Shown: piece after piece, positions 21,630-55,897 of the stretch
Layout of the letters: every line of letters begins with the position of its first letter
Position numbering within the stretch: position 1 is the stretch's first letter
Origin: Gammaproteobacteria bacterium
Lineage (GTDB): Bacteria; Pseudomonadota; Gammaproteobacteria; Pseudomonadales; Pseudohongiellaceae
Length of the DNA: 64,000 nt
Direction: 5' to 3'
NCBI GenBank assembly: GCA_024639905.1
Contig: JAHEGE010000002.1
Location: 1-64,000, forward strand
Notes under the pieces: model-generated
Database searches by the model: none
What the model was told of the DNA's origin: nothing
What the model saw: the letters and a program-made list of their open reading frames with translations, nothing else
Translations under genes and position numbers: made by a program

Positions 21630-22073
21630 GGCCTGGCATTACTCGAGCGGTGTGTCGTTAGAACGGAATTGTAAAGCACGACGAGGCGCAATACGAGGCT
21701 CTGCGGGGGCAGGCGCGCGTTTAACCTGTCCAAAGTTGCCGTGAGTTTGCAGCTTTCCGGCGCTTAAATCTTTAATCGAAAGGCTCTGTATGGTATAAAG
21801 CGCGGCGATTTGAGGATCGTAGAGTTTCTATGGCGCTATTTGGGGTCGCAGATTTCTACGAGAAAATCTTAAAATTGTATAAATATCATAAACTAATGTC
21901 GCACACTTATCGTCACGTCTGATCTGGGTGCCGCGCACTCCTTCTGTGATCTGCCGCTCGCCGGCATAGCACACCGCTGTTTGTACTCTCCGAGTGCACT
22001 TGGCGAGAAGAGGAGAAGAGCGCGGTTGATCGATGGGATAAGTGGAGGCCTAACCCAATACAAAGGAATGACT
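21630..22073. other. map-rpsB divergent intergenic region
   Basis: A 444-bp non-coding region between divergent map and rpsB. It carries a candidate rpsB promoter (extended -10 at 21791-21799) and a second A/T-rich patch near 21870-21895. A leader of roughly 270 nt precedes rpsB. In gammaproteobacteria this leader usually carries the S2 autoregulatory element. I cannot confirm its fold by eye. An upstream in-frame ATG at 21981 would extend rpsB but has no family support. Confidence 0.55.
21791..21806 (+). promoter_or_regulatory. Putative rpsB promoter with GC-rich discriminator
   Basis: TGGTATAAA (21791-21799) is an extended -10. The bases that follow, GCGCGGCG, form a GC-rich discriminator typical of ribosomal-protein promoters inhibited by ppGpp. 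The -35 is weak (TTTAAT at 21771-21776). By eye. Confidence 0.45.
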
Positions 22074-48929: not shown

Positions 48930-50026
48930 GCGAGCCTGGGCACACCGCACTTAAGCCTCTGGAATCTCTCGCCTACGCGCAAGGCGCGCCTTATGTGAGC
49001 GCCGTGATTAAGCGCGAATTTGCTGATTTCCGCGTCGACGAAGAGCTTGCATTCCAGCCTAGCGGCGACGGTGACCACGTCTTTTTGCAGGTCATGAAGG
49101 TCGATGCCTCAACCACCGAAGTCGCAAAGCATTTGGGGAGTCTGGCAGGTATAGGGTCGGCAGATGTTGGCTATTCTGGGATGAAGGACCGGCGCGGCGA
49201 AACTAGCCAGTGGTTCAGTCTCAAGTTGCCTCGCGAACATGAAGGGCGTCTCGAAAATCTCGCTGACGATCGCCTGCGTCTCCTCGACTCGCAGCGCAAC
49301 GAGCGCAAACTTAAGATAGGCAGTCATGCACGTAACCGCTTTCGCTTGAGGCTGCGCGACTGTGAAGGTCCGCTGGCGGAATTTGAGCGCAGGTTGGAAG
49401 GTGTGCGCGTAGGAGGCGTACCGAATTATTTCGGCACACAGCGCTTCGGCGCGCAGATGAGTAATTTGCAGCAGGTTGCTGAGCTAATGCGGCAGGTCTT
49501 AGCGGGGCAGGCTGACCCTCGTCGGCTCCCGCGATTTAGGCGCGGGATGTTGTACTCAGCGGCACGTTCCTATCTTTTTAATCAGGTGCTGGCGATCCGT
49601 ATCGAGCGAGGCACATGGGATCGCTATGTCACGGGCGACGTGATGAGCCTAGACGGCAGCGGACGCTGCTTCGTTCCCTCTGAGTGGGATGAGGTCTTGC
49701 AACAACGCTTAGTCGACTTCGACATCCATCCTACCGGCCCTTTGCCGGGGAAAATTTCCCCTAAAGATAAGTATGTAAGCGCAGCCGAAGCGGCCGATAT
49801 TGAAGAGGAGACACTGGCCGAGTCGCGATGGATGGTAGAGGGTTTGCAGGCGTTCGGCCTCGAAGCCGCCCGCCGCCCGCTGCGATTCCGCGCAGCCGAT
49901 CTCGCGTGGCGCTGGGAACAGGGCGCGACTGGCGAGCTGCCCGACTTGTGCCTCGAATTCACCCTACCACGTGGTGCCTATGCGACGAGCCTGCTCCGGG
50001 AGCTGTGCTTGTTGCGAGACGTTTAG
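48926..50026 (+). CDS. truD: tRNA pseudouridine(13) synthase TruD
   Basis: A 366-residue pseudouridine synthase acting on U13 of tRNA-Glu. The catalytic aspartate is in YSGMKDRRGETSQWFSL near residue 85. The conserved NYFGTQRFG and the TRUD insertion domain follow. The ATG at 48926, overlapping the ispF stop, is preferred over the GTG two codons upstream. In Pseudomonas and E. coli the next gene is surE; here a 54-bp gap leads directly to pcm. Confidence 0.95.
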   Translation: MSEPGHTALKPLESLAYAQGAPYVSAVIKREFADFRVDEELAFQPSGDGDHVFLQVMKVDASTTEVAKHLGSLAGIGSADVGYSGMKDRRGETSQWFSLKLPREHEGRLENLADDRLRLLDSQRNERKLKIGSHARNRFRLRLRDCEGPLAEFERRLEGVRVGGVPNYFGTQRFGAQMSNLQQVAELMRQVLAGQADPRRLPRFRRGMLYSAARSYLFNQVLAIRIERGTWDRYVTGDVMSLDGSGRCFVPSEWDEVLQQRLVDFDIHPTGPLPGKISPKDKYVSAAEAADIEEETLAESRWMVEGLQAFGLEAARRPLRFRAADLAWRWEQGATGELPDLCLEFTLPRGAYATSLLRELCLLRDV

Positions 50027-50080
50027 CGGTACATCGTGAGATGACGCGTTATGGGAGCCTGAGGGCTCGAGACCAACAAC

Positions 50081-50767
50081 ATGAGTTTTAGAAGCGAATC
50101 GAGCCCCAACCTCAGCGGCATAGGTATGACATCGCAGCGTACGCGCGAGCGGCTGCTTGGCAGGCTCATGGATCAGGGTATTACCAGCATGGAAGTGCTC
50201 GATGTGATTCGCTCAACCCCGCGCCACATCTTCCTCGATGAAGCGCTTTCTCATCGCGCCTACGAAGATGTCGCTCTACCGATCGGCTTTAATCAAACTA
50301 TTTCGCAGCCCTATATCGTCGCGCGCATGACCGAAATCGCCTACCGCAGCGGTCCTTTAAATAACGTCTTGGAGATAGGCACCGGCTGTGGCTACCAGAC
50401 GTCTATTCTCGCGCGGCTAGCTAAGCGCGTCGCCAGTGTCGAGCGCATCAAGCCGCTGCTCGATAAGGCGCGTAAGAATCTTCGCCTTCTGGGGTTGCGC
50501 AACGTCTCCCTCAAACATGACGACGGAAGTCTGGGCTGGGAAAGCATGGGGCCGTTCGACGCCATCATCACCACCGCGGCGCCACAGACGATTCCGCATG
50601 AGTTGCTATTTCAACTCAACGACGGCGGCAGGCTGATCATTCCCGTCGGCGGTGAGGCGCAGCAGCAGCTGCAGCTGATCACTCGCCAGGGCGAGGATTT
50701 TCAGCGAGAAAAGCTCGAAGAGGTGCGCTTCGTGCCGCTGCTAGTGGGTCGGGTGCAAGATCGATGA
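50081..50767 (+). CDS. pcm: Protein-L-isoaspartate O-methyltransferase
   Basis: A 228-residue SAM-dependent methyltransferase that repairs isoaspartyl residues in aged proteins. The SAM motif [17 protein letters not shown] is near 100-116. The substrate-loop [11 protein letters not shown] and the [17 protein letters not shown] block follow. It is usually preceded by surE and followed by nlpD-rpoS. Here surE is missing, and a DUF368 gene overlapping by 4 bp (ATGA) separates it from nlpD. Confidence 0.95.
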
Positions 50768-51699
50768 ACGGGACTCGCGACAAGCCGCCCCAGGCTGGCG
50801 CCGGGTCGCTGCTCATGCTGCTTCTAAAGGGAGCGCTCATCGGCATGAGCGACTCGGTGCCTGGGGTTTCGGGGGGTACCATCGCTGTGCTCACAGGAAC
50901 TTATGCGCGTCTGATCACTGCTATTAGCGCGTTTGATTTACAGGCGTTGAGATTGCTCTCGCAGCGCGAGTTCAGCGCGGCATGGCGTCATGTTGATGCG
51001 AGCTTCTTATCGCCCCTAGCTGGCGGCATGCTCTGTGGCCTGTTGTTGTCCGCGAACACTGTACTCTTCGCGCTCGAGCACTATCCGGTGTTGCTTGGTG
51101 CATTCTTCATGGGACTGGTGCTTGGTGCGCTGTTCTTGCTGCGAGCGGAATACGCGCTCGCAACGCCTGCTGGCATGGTGCTCTTCGGGGTTGGAGCGGT
51201 CGTTGTCGGTGGGTTGGCTTGGCTGGAACCCGTGAGTGGGGAGGCATCGAATGGCAGGCTGTTCCTCGCCGGCGCCGTTGCGATTAGCGCGATGCTGTTA
51301 CCGGGTCTGTCGGGTGCGTTTTTGCTCTTGCTCATGGGCGTCTACGAGCCGATGTTGGCGGCGCTTGTCGCCTTCGATCTTGCGCCTCTGGTGAGTTTCG
51401 CCGCAGGCTGCGCGGTGGGCATTCTTGCCTTTTCGCGCGCGCTTGCTTGGTTGCTAAGCCACTTTCGCGCGCAGGCGTATAGCCTCATCGGTGGCTTGCT
51501 GCTTGGCTCTTTGTTGGTGATTTGGCCTTGGCGGTTTTCGACCAGTCCGACACCTGTGTGGCCCACCGACTACGCGGCGGCTGGTCTGGAGGCGCAACTG
51601 GGCGCGGCAGTGCTTTGTGGGCTTTTCGGTCTTGCGCTCGTCGTCGGGCTGCAGCAATTTTTCGAGTCGCAGAAGACTGCGGCTAAGCAACAGAATTGA
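50764..51699 (+). CDS. DUF368 polytopic membrane protein, probable polyprenyl-phosphate transporter (PopT-like)
   Basis: A 311-residue membrane protein with about eight to nine hydrophobic segments. The conserved [21 protein letters not shown] near residues 27-47 and a second, repeat-like [21 protein letters not shown] near 178-198 are the DUF368 hallmarks and suggest an internally duplicated, inverted-repeat transporter. DUF368 proteins have been reported as undecaprenyl-phosphate translocases (PopT) in some bacteria. That role is inferred here by family. The start overlaps the pcm stop, and nlpD follows after 34 bp, so it is embedded in the pcm-nlpD operon. Confidence 0.85.
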
Positions 51700-51733: not shown

Positions 51734-52678
51734 ATGCGCAGATACCGCTTCGCGCTGGTAGTAGGAATAATGACGCTAGCTGCTTGCCGCAGCTACGAGG
51801 CTCCGATCGCGGAGCAGGGCGATCGTCAGGTCGTGACCCCGCCGTTGGTCGTCACTGACTCGACCCCCGATAGCGAGCTGCGCCTTCCGCAGAACGCGGC
51901 GGTCATCGTGGCGTCGGATGGTAGCACCCAGGTTAGCCGTCCGCGAAGATCCGCAGAGGTCAGCGTAAGCGAGCCGGTGCGGCGCAGCGGTTCGCCCGCG
52001 ACATCACAGCCTCGAGCTGAAGCCCCGCGTAGTCATCGGGTGCGCGATGGTGAGTCACTTTACTCCATCGCCTTTCAGTACGACCTCGACTTCCGCACAC
52101 TGGCTTTGGCGAATGCCTTGCGCGCCCCGTATACGATCTTTGTCGGCCAAGAACTGAGTCTTGCCCTCGGCGCGGGTGCCCCGGCTGCGTCTAACGTAAC
52201 GGCTAACGTGGGCACCGCGGTCCGCAATAATGGCGTTGCTCAGGCGCAGGCGGGCACTCTCGGCCGCGGCGGTGTTATGCGTCGTTCGATCGGTGGCTCC
52301 AATAGCAGTGCGCCCGATTGGCGCTGGCCTACTGAAAGCACGCGCTTGCTACGAGGCTTCGGCAGTGGTGAGGCGCGCGGCATCGATATTGCTGTACGCG
52401 ATGGCGATGCGGTAATGGCCGCCGCCGACGGTGAGGTGGTGTATTCGGGACGCGGAGTACAGGGCACCGGCGACCTCATCATACTGAGGCATAACGATCG
52501 CTATTTGAGTGCCTATGCGCACAACAGGGTTATGCTGGTAGAAGAAGGAGCGCGTGTCAGGGCTGGCGATAAGATCGCCGAGGCGGGCACTAATCTCGCT
52601 GGAGACCCGCTGCTGCACTTTGAAATCAGGGAAGAGGGAAAATCAATCGATCCAGTCGGGCTGCTGCCCAGACGCTAG
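51734..52678 (+). CDS. nlpD: Lipoprotein NlpD, LysM and degenerate LytM domains
   Basis: A 314-residue outer-membrane lipoprotein that activates an N-acetylmuramoyl-L-alanine amidase during cell separation. The lipobox is LAAC with Cys18. A LysM domain (HRVRDGESLYSIAFQYDLD, about 100-145) binds peptidoglycan. The C-terminal M23/LytM domain (about 205-310) has lost the first zinc histidine (RGIDIAV where active enzymes have a His) but keeps LLHFEIR, as expected for a non-catalytic activator. In most relatives the next gene is rpoS, whose main promoter lies within nlpD. Here the next gene is convergent fdxA. Confidence 0.93.
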   Translation: MRRYRFALVVGIMTLAACRSYEAPIAEQGDRQVVTPPLVVTDSTPDSELRLPQNAAVIVASDGSTQVSRPRRSAEVSVSEPVRRSGSPATSQPRAEAPRSHRVRDGESLYSIAFQYDLDFRTLALANALRAPYTIFVGQELSLALGAGAPAASNVTANVGTAVRNNGVAQAQAGTLGRGGVMRRSIGGSNSSAPDWRWPTESTRLLRGFGSGEARGIDIAVRDGDAVMAAADGEVVYSGRGVQGTGDLIILRHNDRYLSAYAHNRVMLVEEGARVRAGDKIAEAGTNLAGDPLLHFEIREEGKSIDPVGLLPRR

Positions 52679-52683
52679 CGGCC

Positions 52684-52742
52684 TCCCGTCACCTTGAAGT
52701 TGCAGTGAAGGCGTTCAGGCTTAAGGTGACGCGAGGCGGGAG
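52684..52742. terminator. Convergent inverted repeat between nlpD and fdxA
   Basis: A perfect 9-bp arm, CGTCACCTT (52687-52695) with AAGGTGACG (52723-52731), flanked by offset CTCCCG and CGGGAG. It fills almost the whole 70-bp gap between the convergent genes. There is no T run, so termination efficiency is uncertain. This is the position where rpoS normally lies. Confidence 0.5.
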
Positions 52743-52748
52743 CGCGGG

Positions 52749-53072
52749 TTAGCGCTCCAGATATTGCAGTTTGTTTTCTACGTCGGTGAACTCTTCAGCC
52801 TCAGGAAGCGCGTCCTTCTTCTCGGTAATATTCGGCCACACCTCGGCCAATTCCGCATTCAGCGCGAGAAATTCCTGCTGATCTTCAGGTAGTTCATCTT
52901 CGGCGAAGATCGCATCCACCGGGCACTCTGGCTCGCATAGCGCGCAATCGATGCACTCATCAGGATGGATGACGAGGAAGTTCGGGCCCTCGTAGAAACA
53001 GTCTACCGGACACACTTCAACACAGTCTGTGTGCTTACACTTAATACAGTTATCACCAACTACAAATGTCAT
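52749..53072 (-). CDS. fdxA: 7Fe ferredoxin FdxA
   Basis: A 107-residue ferredoxin with one 3Fe-4S and one 4Fe-4S cluster. Cys9, Cys12, Cys17 and Cys21 lie in the first half, and [12 protein letters not shown] (Cys40, 43, 46, 50) forms the second motif. The acidic C-terminal tail is typical of the Azotobacter FdI/FdxA type. The ATG at 53072, with GGAGAG upstream, gives the family length; a longer frame adds 19 unconserved residues. It is normally beside rpoS and mutS; mutS remains but rpoS is absent. Confidence 0.95.
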
Positions 53073-53206: not shown

Positions 53207-55897
53207 TTAAAGCTGACCCTTGAATGTGTACAGCAACGCCAATGCCTGCTTGGCGCTGAGCTCGTCCGGATCGAGTTTGGCGAGTGCCTCGACGACAGGA
53301 TGAGGCGCTGCGGCGAACAGTTCGCTCTGCATGGGCACCTGGCTGTCTTGCCGCTGTTCACCTCTCGTTTGCGCCGTCCGTAGGCTGTCACTCGCTACCG
53401 CCTGGCCAGCCGGGTGTCCGCTGACCTGCGCCGCATGGCTCTCAGCCTCGAGCTGCGCGAGCTTGCTCCGCGCGCTGTCGATCACCGCGGCGGGAATGCC
53501 AGCCAGCTGAGCGACCTGCAGTCCGTAACTCTGGTTGGCAGGTCCGGGTTTGACTGCGTGCATGAACACGATGCCGCTGTCGTGTTCGACCGCGTCGAGG
53601 TGAACATTGGCGATGCTGTCGAAATCGTCAGGCAGGCTCGTGAGTTCGAAATAGTGAGTTGCGAACAGTGTGTAGGCGTTGAGCCGCTGGGCGATATACA
53701 CCGCAGCTGCCCAGGCGAGCGAGAGGCCGTCGAAGGTGCTGGTGCCGCGGCCCACTTCATCCATGAGTACGAGGCTGTTCTCGGTCGCGTTGTGTAAGAT
53801 ATTCGCGGTCTCTGTCATCTCTACCATGAAGGTCGAACGCCCTCCGGCGAGGTCGTCCGCAGAGCCGATGCGGGTAAAGATGCGATCGATTGGGCCGAGT
53901 CGCACGCGCTTAGCGGGCACGAAGCTGCCGCAAAGGGCGAGCAATGTGATTAGCGCGGTCTGGCGCATATAGGTCGACTTACCGCCCATGTTAGGGCCGG
54001 TGATGATCAGCATCTTGCGTCGCCGATCGAGCAGCGCATCGTTAGCGACGAAGGCTGCATCGCTTACGGCTTCCACAACGGGATGGCGGCCCGCTTCGAT
54101 GTCGATTCCTGGCTCTGTATCTAGCGTGGGGCGGCAGTAGTCACCATTGACCGCGCGTTCGGCAAAACAGGTGAGCACATCGAGCTCGGCTAGCGCCTCG
54201 GCGCTGCGCTGTAACGACGCGAGGTCGGCGGCAAGTGTTTCCAGCAGCTCGTCGTATAGGGCTTTCTCCCGCGCGAGCGACTTACTGCGGGCGCTGAGCA
54301 CCTTGTCTTCGAATTCTTTGAGCTCGGGGGTGATAAAACGCTCTGCGTTCTTCAATGTCTGCCTGCGGATATATTCGGCGGGCATCTCTGCGCCTGCCTG
54401 GCCTTTGCTGATTTCGATGTAATAACCGTGCACGCGGTTGTAGCCAACCTTCAGCGTCGCGATGCCAGTGCGAGCCTTCTCCTTTACCTCCAGATCGATG
54501 AGGAACTGGCCAGCGTTGCTGCTAAGGTTGCGCAGTTCGTCGAGTTCGGCGTCGAAGCCGGTGGCGATCACGCCGCCTTCGCGGATGACAACCGGTGGGT
54601 CCGCTTCAAGCGCTTGGCAAAGCAGCGCGTGCGGCGCGGGGAATTCGGCGATCTGTGCCGCTAAGACGCCGAGGGCAAAATCACCCTCAGCGAGTGAGTC
54701 GCGCTGGGTCGCTGCGAGCTTCGATTGCAGCAGTGGAAGCTGTCCGAGGCTGTCGCGCAGTTTCGCGAGGTCGCGCGGTCGTGCTGAGCGCAGGCCAAGA
54801 CGGGCGAGGATGCGTTCGACATCACCGATGCCGCCGAGGACCTCGGCGATAGGCTCGAAGTGGTAGTTGTGCATCAAAGCCGCCACACGATCCTGCCGCC
54901 TAACGAGTACCGAGGTGTCACGTAGAGGGCGATTGATCCAGCGTGCCAGCAGGCGGCCGCCCATCGCCGTAGAGGTGGTGTCGAGCACGGACAGGAGAGT
55001 GTTATCGCGCCTGCCCGAGAGGTTGATATCGAGTTCCAGATTGCGGCGACTCGCCGCGTCGAGGATCACGCTGTCTTCGAGTTGCTCGACGCTAAGCCCC
55101 TGAATATGAGGCAACTCCGTGCGCTGGGTGTCGCGCGCGTATTGCAGCAAGCAGCCCGCTGCCTGCAGCGCCGTGTGGAGTTCTTCGCAGCCGAATGCGC
55201 TCAAGTCGCGGGTTTTGAAATGCGTCGTTAAGGTGCGCTGCGCATTGTCCAGTTCGAATTCCCACACCGGCCGCTTCCGTTTGGCGGGGTGGCGTACCGA
55301 TTCCATGGCCGGCTCAAGCTCCTCCTGAAAAAGGATCTCCGCAGGTCGCAGGCGCTCAATTTCGGCGCGCATCGCCTCCAAGCCATACACTTCGCTGAGC
55401 ACGAAGCGGCCGCTGCTGATATTCATCGATGCGAGTCCGAACGCGGTGCTGGCATCGAGCTCGCGCGCGTTCGCCTGAACAGACAGGCAGAGCAACGAGT
55501 TGTCGCGCCCCTCGTCGAGCAGCGCCTCGTCACTCACTGTGCCCGGGGTGATGACCCGCACCACCTTGCGCTCTACTGGACCCTTGCTAGTTGCCGGGTC
55601 TCCGATCTGTTCGCCAATCGCCACCGAGACCCCGGCGGCCACGAGTTTTGCGAGGTAGCGGTCGGCAGCATGGTAGGGGATGCCGCACATGGGAATGGGC
55701 TGTCCGCCCGACTTGCCGCGCGCAGTCAGCGTGATGTCCAGAATTCGCGCCGCGACCTTCGCGTCCTCATAGAAAAGCTCGTAAAAATCGCCCATGCGAT
55801 AGAACAAGAGGCCATCGGGATGCTGCGCTTTGATGCTCAGATACTGCTGCATCATCGGGGTGTGAGGGGGTTGGGACATCGAGAATCTTTTTGTCAT
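53207..55897 (-). CDS. mutS: DNA mismatch repair protein MutS
   Basis: An 896-residue mismatch-recognition ATPase. The mismatch-probing F-Y-E is at residues 38-40 in RMGDFYELF. Connector, core and clamp domains follow, and the Walker [10 protein letters not shown] is at about 634-642, with a later [13 protein letters not shown] second ATG six codons downstream (55879, starting [13 protein letters not shown]) is an equally good start; neither has a strong ribosome site. It is followed on the same strand by fdxA and is divergent from pncC. Confidence 0.96.

Follow-up and report, generated by a model that had tools for sequence, protein, structure and literature searches.

Absence of rpoS beside nlpD in a Pseudohongiella-like genome is probably explained by repeated loss of the ancestral copy in a paralog-bearing group

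The absence of rpoS downstream of nlpD in the 64,000-nucleotide stretch of gammaproteobacterial DNA analyzed here (the window) is real and is explained by repeated loss of an ancestral rpoS gene in a group of relatives that bears an rpoS paralog. Here, rpoS linked to nlpD is termed the n copy, and the RpoS-like gene beside a caiB-like CoA-transferase gene is termed the u copy. The whole account, to which we assign a probability of roughly 0.85, comprises an ancestor with both copies, repeated in-place loss of n, survival of u as the only RpoS-like sigma factor in the window's genome, and a relaxed need for the stress response. The nearest named relatives are Pseudohongiella-like metagenome-assembled genomes (Pseudomonadales); NCBI places Pseudohongiella in the Pseudohongiellaceae, Pseudomonadales. 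A literature search listed no paper on rpoS in this genus; one paper contains both words (PMC12868259).

The gene order at the window locus is ispF-truD-pcm-popT-nlpD-fdxA-mutS-pncC-recA, where mutS and recA are named from open reading frame and place. On the plus strand lie pcm, encoding protein-L-isoaspartate methyltransferase (50081-50767; NCBIfam NF001453, 259.6 bits, cut-off 188), a gene for a popT-like polyprenyl-phosphate transporter (50764-51699; NCBIfam NF052564, E = 1.5e-67, below cut-off) and an nlpD-like lipoprotein/amidase activator gene (51734-52678). The last was assigned from its best family (NCBIfam NF008123, E = 2.6e-48, below cut-off) and from the neighborhood in relatives, and is the gene that ancestrally preceded rpoS. 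On the minus strand lie the ferredoxin gene fdxA (52749-53072; NCBIfam NF045490, 169.6 bits, cut-off 135) and mutS (53207-55897), a conserved neighbor in relatives. The fdxA frame is readable from 53129, and the FdxA model starts at residue 20 of that longer frame. The nlpD stop codon is a TAG at 52676-52678 and the fdxA stop starts at 52749, leaving a junction of 70 bp (52679-52748) that lacks the n copy, as judged from the open reading frames, the sigma factor search and the gaps of relatives. The initial annotation had described nlpD and fdxA as convergent, 70 bp apart and without a sigma factor gene between them, and had placed pcm, nlpD, fdxA and mutS in an rpoS-type neighborhood; the coordinates confirm the former, and same-order relatives that carry rpoS between nlpD and fdxA confirm the latter.

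The junction contains an inverted repeat with 15-nucleotide arms (52681-52695 and 52723-52737) that are 93% complementary and spaced 27 nucleotides apart. Its predicted fold was only modestly better than that of shuffled sequences (z = -1.90, with 10 of 200 shuffles equally good), and a search of the junction for a canonical terminator with a T-tract found none. The repeat may form a hairpin where the two convergent genes end. Its origin as a mobile repeat or as an excision scar common to relatives was considered and rejected because the stretch has no other full match in its own genome (the next match is 16 bases) and is absent from the nlpD-fdxA gaps of the nearest sisters, which span 1-48 bp: G024, G071, G084 (25 bp), G058 (48 bp) and G085 (1 bp).

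In Pseudomonas, an rsmZ-type RNA lies near the nlpD-rpoS-fdxA junction. Such an RNA was rejected as a candidate here, t44 being the sole family to reach the Rfam gathering threshold across the window and loci L044, L086, L087 and L099; the t44 match in the window lies at 21882-22054 on the plus strand (59.9 bits). By eye, the nlpD-fdxA gaps of G013 and G022 (L088 and L096) contain short repeated or hairpin-like units. Elsewhere in the window, pcm directly follows truD (50026-50081), with no room for surE, which usually sits between these two genes; the same arrangement occurs in the genus relatives seen, and some same-order genomes have a truD-pcm gap of surE size.

The genome containing the window (G000) is a draft of 2,668,146 bases in 26 contigs, scored as 100% complete. 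Searching the entire genome for the Sigma70_r2 domain gave a list of 12 places, with none on the window's contig, C11. The earlier statement that no sigma-70-family gene is present thus holds for the junction and for this contig, but not for the genome, as an RpoS-like gene is found on contig C14. This u copy has 299 codons (C14:47545-48444, corresponding to L009:1447-2346) and is located not after nlpD but in the setting ompA-ubiC-[gene]-caiB, flanked by ubiC and an OmpA-family gene in one direction and by the caiB-like gene in the other. A search of the genome with the RpoS model recovers this gene and no second RpoS. Loss of the sigma factor from the genome is thus not supported, and the suggestion that the lineage lost rpoS stands for the nlpD-linked copy, whereas an RpoS-like gene persists.

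The u protein scored 335.7 bits against the RpoS model TIGR02394, compared with 278.4 bits for the RpoD of the same genome. Two RpoS models headed its NCBIfam matches (346.1 and 336.1 bits), followed by the next family at 235.4 bits, and the best RpoD model reached 221.6 bits. Given that the protein falls below the curated RpoS cut-offs (335.7 versus 378.7 bits for TIGR02394 and 346.1 versus 394 bits for NCBIfam), the gene is termed RpoS-like rather than an RpoS equivalog. The six best solved chains were all RpoS (best E = 1.6e-80). Pfam regions r1_2, r2 and r4 exceeded their cut-offs and r3 scored 20.0 bits against a cut-off of 25.3; at 299 residues, the protein has no long N-terminal (1.1) part. 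In trees it falls within a 22-row clade of u proteins (support 100/100) and apart from its own RpoD, on a long branch whose position inside the clade is unsure. Identity to the u protein of G012 is 79% in region 2, 53% in region 4.2, 38% in region 1.2, 37% in region 4.1 and 27% in region 3. Given that region 2 is the best kept and the frame is open, the protein is probably still in use.

An RpoS-like gene adjoins nlpD in 20 of 21 sampled same-order genomes (the match in G050 is weak, and contig ends hide the site in G038), which bears out the proposal that an ancestral nlpD-linked rpoS is absent from the window. The very divergent nlpD-fdxA sigma factor of G050, a 1.9-Mb genome of another family in the order, comprises 266 residues (L112:5412-6212; RpoS model, 241.8 bits). 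Two tandem rpoS-like genes follow nlpD in Shewanella corallii DSM 21332 (L180:10007-11953), the second on a long branch.

Within the genus-level group, 84 genomes including the window's were classified by matches at E = 1e-60: five had two matches, 48 had one, and 31 had none, a few of the last with broken or split copies. When completeness was required to be 90% or more and contamination 5% or less, 48 genomes qualified, of which 40 had a match and eight had none. Five n matches reached at least 574 bits against the G012 n protein, and all other listed matches reached at most 418. Both copies occur together in G007, G011, G012, G025 and G031. The first four have nlpD-rpoS-fdxA plus rpoS beside caiB, with an in-frame TAG in region 4.2 of the G011 n copy; in G031 the n site is split over two contigs. 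The RpoS-like gene lies beside caiB in 21 relatives, 15 of which also have ubiC; the contigs of G029 and G036 stop short of caiB. The single-copy genomes whose surroundings were examined carry the gene only at this second site, and the one-match set includes copies with in-frame stops (G023, G066, G068 and G090).

An RpoS-model search covered 22 of the 31 genomes without a match, that is, all but G061, G063, G064, G065, G078, G093, G094, G099 and G102. RpoS was recovered in two pieces on two contigs in G071, the u copy in two frames in G006, and pieces with stops in G067. The ambiguous sigma match of G015 (L142, 241.6 bits) placed beside RpoD on a distorted long branch. In G074, G086, G091 and G095, which are 95-99% complete, the RpoS model found no full-length match beyond apparent RpoD, RpoH and FliA, these assignments being a reading of match lengths and scores. 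Complete loss of RpoS is therefore likely in several of the genomes without a match, though proven in none. Most of the genomes compared are drafts, and single breaks may thus be sequence errors.

Erosion of the u copy is apparent in some relatives: three in-frame TAA codons interrupt it in G023, a frame break and stops in G006, and between ubiC and caiB at most weak remnants are found in G010 (E = 0.001) and G002 (by eye). Its rate of change was obtained for 20 genomes on a fixed topology as u branch lengths divided by those of the joined markers, with G008 and G017 (no nlpD locus) and G006 and G023 (broken u) left out. The ratio was 0.43 (0.67/1.59) on branches leading only to holders of n, 0.66 on mixed branches and 2.91 (9.14/3.14) within groups lacking n. 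Tip ratios were 0.28-0.59 in five n holders versus 0.09-8.0 in 15 genomes lacking n (Mann-Whitney p = 0.015, kinship ignored). The window's lineage is the extreme, the stem of G000 and G024 having a ratio of 5.3 and the tips 8.0 and 4.7. Stems of several groups lacking n had high ratios of 3.0-5.3, but the deepest had 1.44; slow tips with ratios of about 1 or less occur in G021, G022, G029 (0.28), G032 (0.09) and G034. In pairwise comparison, G012 and G025 reach 72% for MutS and 86% for u, and G000 and G024 reach 85% for MutS and 54% for u. The u copy thus shows both decay and a burst of change with constraint restored afterward. Fast change after loss of n would not be expected of a sole surviving, needed regulator, and this counts against the account that we favor.

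These rates bear on the strongest alternative, in which u has become a distinct group-2 sigma factor controlling a regulon of its own (cf. RpoQ) and the lineage is left without an RpoS stress response. We regard this as the less probable reading, although a real contender: high stem ratios in several groups lacking n, followed by some slow tips, speak for it, and the contrast between region 3 (27%) and region 2 (79%) in identity to a slow u copy and the scores below the RpoS cut-offs point the same way. By contrast, the best families and solved structures are still those of RpoS, and the broken or missing u copies of other relatives fit decay better than a needed new role. It is also conceivable, and put forward only tentatively, that u is strongly constrained only while n is present and that loss of n sets off a burst ending in a rewired sigma factor or a pseudogene. 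If so, n and u would be a co-dependent pair, and losing one would repeatedly collapse or rewire the whole stress-response network.

The origin of u was addressed with protein trees. A single branch (100/100) sets apart the 22 u proteins, G023 having been left out for its in-frame stops, and another (100/99) sets apart the five n proteins of the genus. Free trees did not join the two. A broader tree made with a quick method on 57 rows, which left out the fast u proteins including that of G000, gave u a support of just 71 and placed a Dechloromonas RpoS (L206), itself long-branched, in the same unresolved fork. The separation of u from genus n and this Dechloromonas protein would be compatible with acquisition of u by horizontal transfer from another gammaproteobacterium, making n dispensable. 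Such a transfer is considered improbable: a tree constrained to hold u and genus n together, the window's u not being included, exceeded the free search in likelihood by 5.55 (p-AU = 0.565), and thus fits duplication within the lineage. In addition, when the best 80 of 388 RpoS loci found with a u-type query were inspected, rpoS lay beside this caiB in 11, of which three were labeled Pseudohongiella, one was labeled SAR86 cluster and the others were from unclassified (Gamma)proteobacteria or Pseudomonadales metagenome-assembled genomes.

The course of n loss can be followed at its former position. Counting the window's genome, 43 genomes have nlpD and fdxA on a single contig with no rpoS gene separating them, at distances of 1-426 bp. 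The 34 gaps of at least 40 bp in genomes lacking n were searched with five n proteins, and rpoS fossils were found in three. In the G002 gap, the nlpD stop is followed at once by the end of region 4.2, which is closer to n than to u (E = 9e-17 against the G012 n protein). In G074, N-terminal pieces are followed by region 4.2 with the middle missing (E = 2e-5), and the piece in G091 contains four stops (E = 3e-5 with one of the five queries and 0.27 with the next). Reversed-query decoys on the same gaps gave a best E of 0.67. These three sets of pieces record decay and deletion in place. The remaining 31 gaps searched, including that of the window, held no rpoS trace. The initial annotation had proposed a clean excision; as a general account this is countered by the fossils of three relatives and by the lack of the inverted repeat in the nearest sisters, whereas the window's own gap holds no trace from which the last step can be told, and clean deletion is possible there and in the other 30 traceless gaps. 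Comparison of the locus in close relatives thus gives a mixed picture, with n present in some and fossil or absent in others.

In a tree built from six genes and covering 31 genus genomes and four outgroups, n holders are scattered, requiring at least six changes, three of which starred branches make unavoidable; as few changes sufficed in 22 of 500 label shuffles. Loss without regain would take about seven to nine events (a hand count, with several nodes weak). These comparisons indicate that the n copy was lost repeatedly within the genus-level group.

Discovery of rpoS elsewhere in the genome had been expected to signal relocation. Such a gene was found, but five relatives carry it alongside the nlpD copy, which marks it as a paralog and points to differential loss rather than a move. 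Transposition of a single rpoS from nlpD to the caiB site could be argued from the examined single-copy genomes, but it is very improbable given that u proteins group apart from n and n fossils persist at the old site in relatives lacking n; simple relocation is ruled out by the two-copy genomes. That an assembly collapse or gap at 52679-52748 hides rpoS is a negligible prospect despite the draft state of the 26 contigs, because 42 other genomes, close sisters included, share the rpoS-less junction, and the genome scored 100% complete has no second RpoS.

Completeness-corrected median genome sizes were 4.35 Mb for two matches (five genomes), 3.51 Mb for one (48) and 3.00 Mb for none (31); with kinship ignored, two matches differed from the rest (p = 0.003) and one from none (p = 0.002), and missing sequence inflates the class with none. 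Twenty-one genomes lacking n are at least as large as the smallest n holder, and G079 reaches 5.2 Mb. Genome reduction fits as a setting of the loss, although its causal role is inferred.

The favored course of events would thus be as follows. The group ancestor would have carried two RpoS-type sigma factors, n after nlpD and the paralog u beside the caiB-like CoA-transferase gene. Comparison among relatives shows that n was lost at its site, by decay or deletion, on several independent occasions; the window's lineage is one of these, and there only the 70-bp convergent junction remains of the n site. The sequence shows u to be the only RpoS-like sigma factor kept in the window's genome. The u protein, strongly diverged in regions 1.2, 3 and 4.1, would probably still bind core RNA polymerase and read sigma-38/70-type promoters, given the good conservation of region 2 and the partial conservation of region 4.2. 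The probable setting is a lessened requirement for the general stress response together with genome reduction.

Comparison with known systems places these results in context. The Pseudomonas knackmussii order nlpD-rpoS-fdxA (PMC3395598) matches the ancestral neighborhood in the order, and the u protein resembles Pseudomonas RpoS (sigma-38) in its best family and in a sigma-70 layout, with region 3 scoring below its cut-off, that lacks the long N-terminal part of RpoD. Unlike Pseudomonas, the window's genome has lost the nlpD copy, and its remaining gene lies beside caiB and encodes a protein below the RpoS cut-offs. RpoQ of Vibrio fischeri is a second sigma-S-like factor that coexists with rpoS and is named for the quorum response (PMC2330054). 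The u copy is likewise a second group-2 sigma-38-type paralog, a likeness by type; unlike RpoQ, it outlives rpoS in the window's genome. Such a second paralog beside rpoS is present in G007, G011, G012, G025 and G031, but not in the window's genome, which has one only. More than one RpoS-like group in a single lineage is also found in the Acidithiobacillia, where several RpoS groups occur (PMC12194929); these belong to another class, and the portion of that report available describes no replacement at nlpD. According to PMC7527412, which cites Chiang and Schellhorn 2010, RpoS derives from RpoD, and alpha- and epsilonproteobacteria have lost it. Lineages without RpoS are thus shared with those classes, whereas here the loss is repeated inside one genus-level group and caught with fossils.

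As a practical warning, the neighborhood alone would call the genome RpoS-less, and the curated RpoS cut-offs would also miss the u copy. Because a single genus-level group ranges from genomes with both copies or one copy to fossils and an apparent absence, it lends itself to comparing how a stress-response switch is dismantled and which constraints act on its duplicates.
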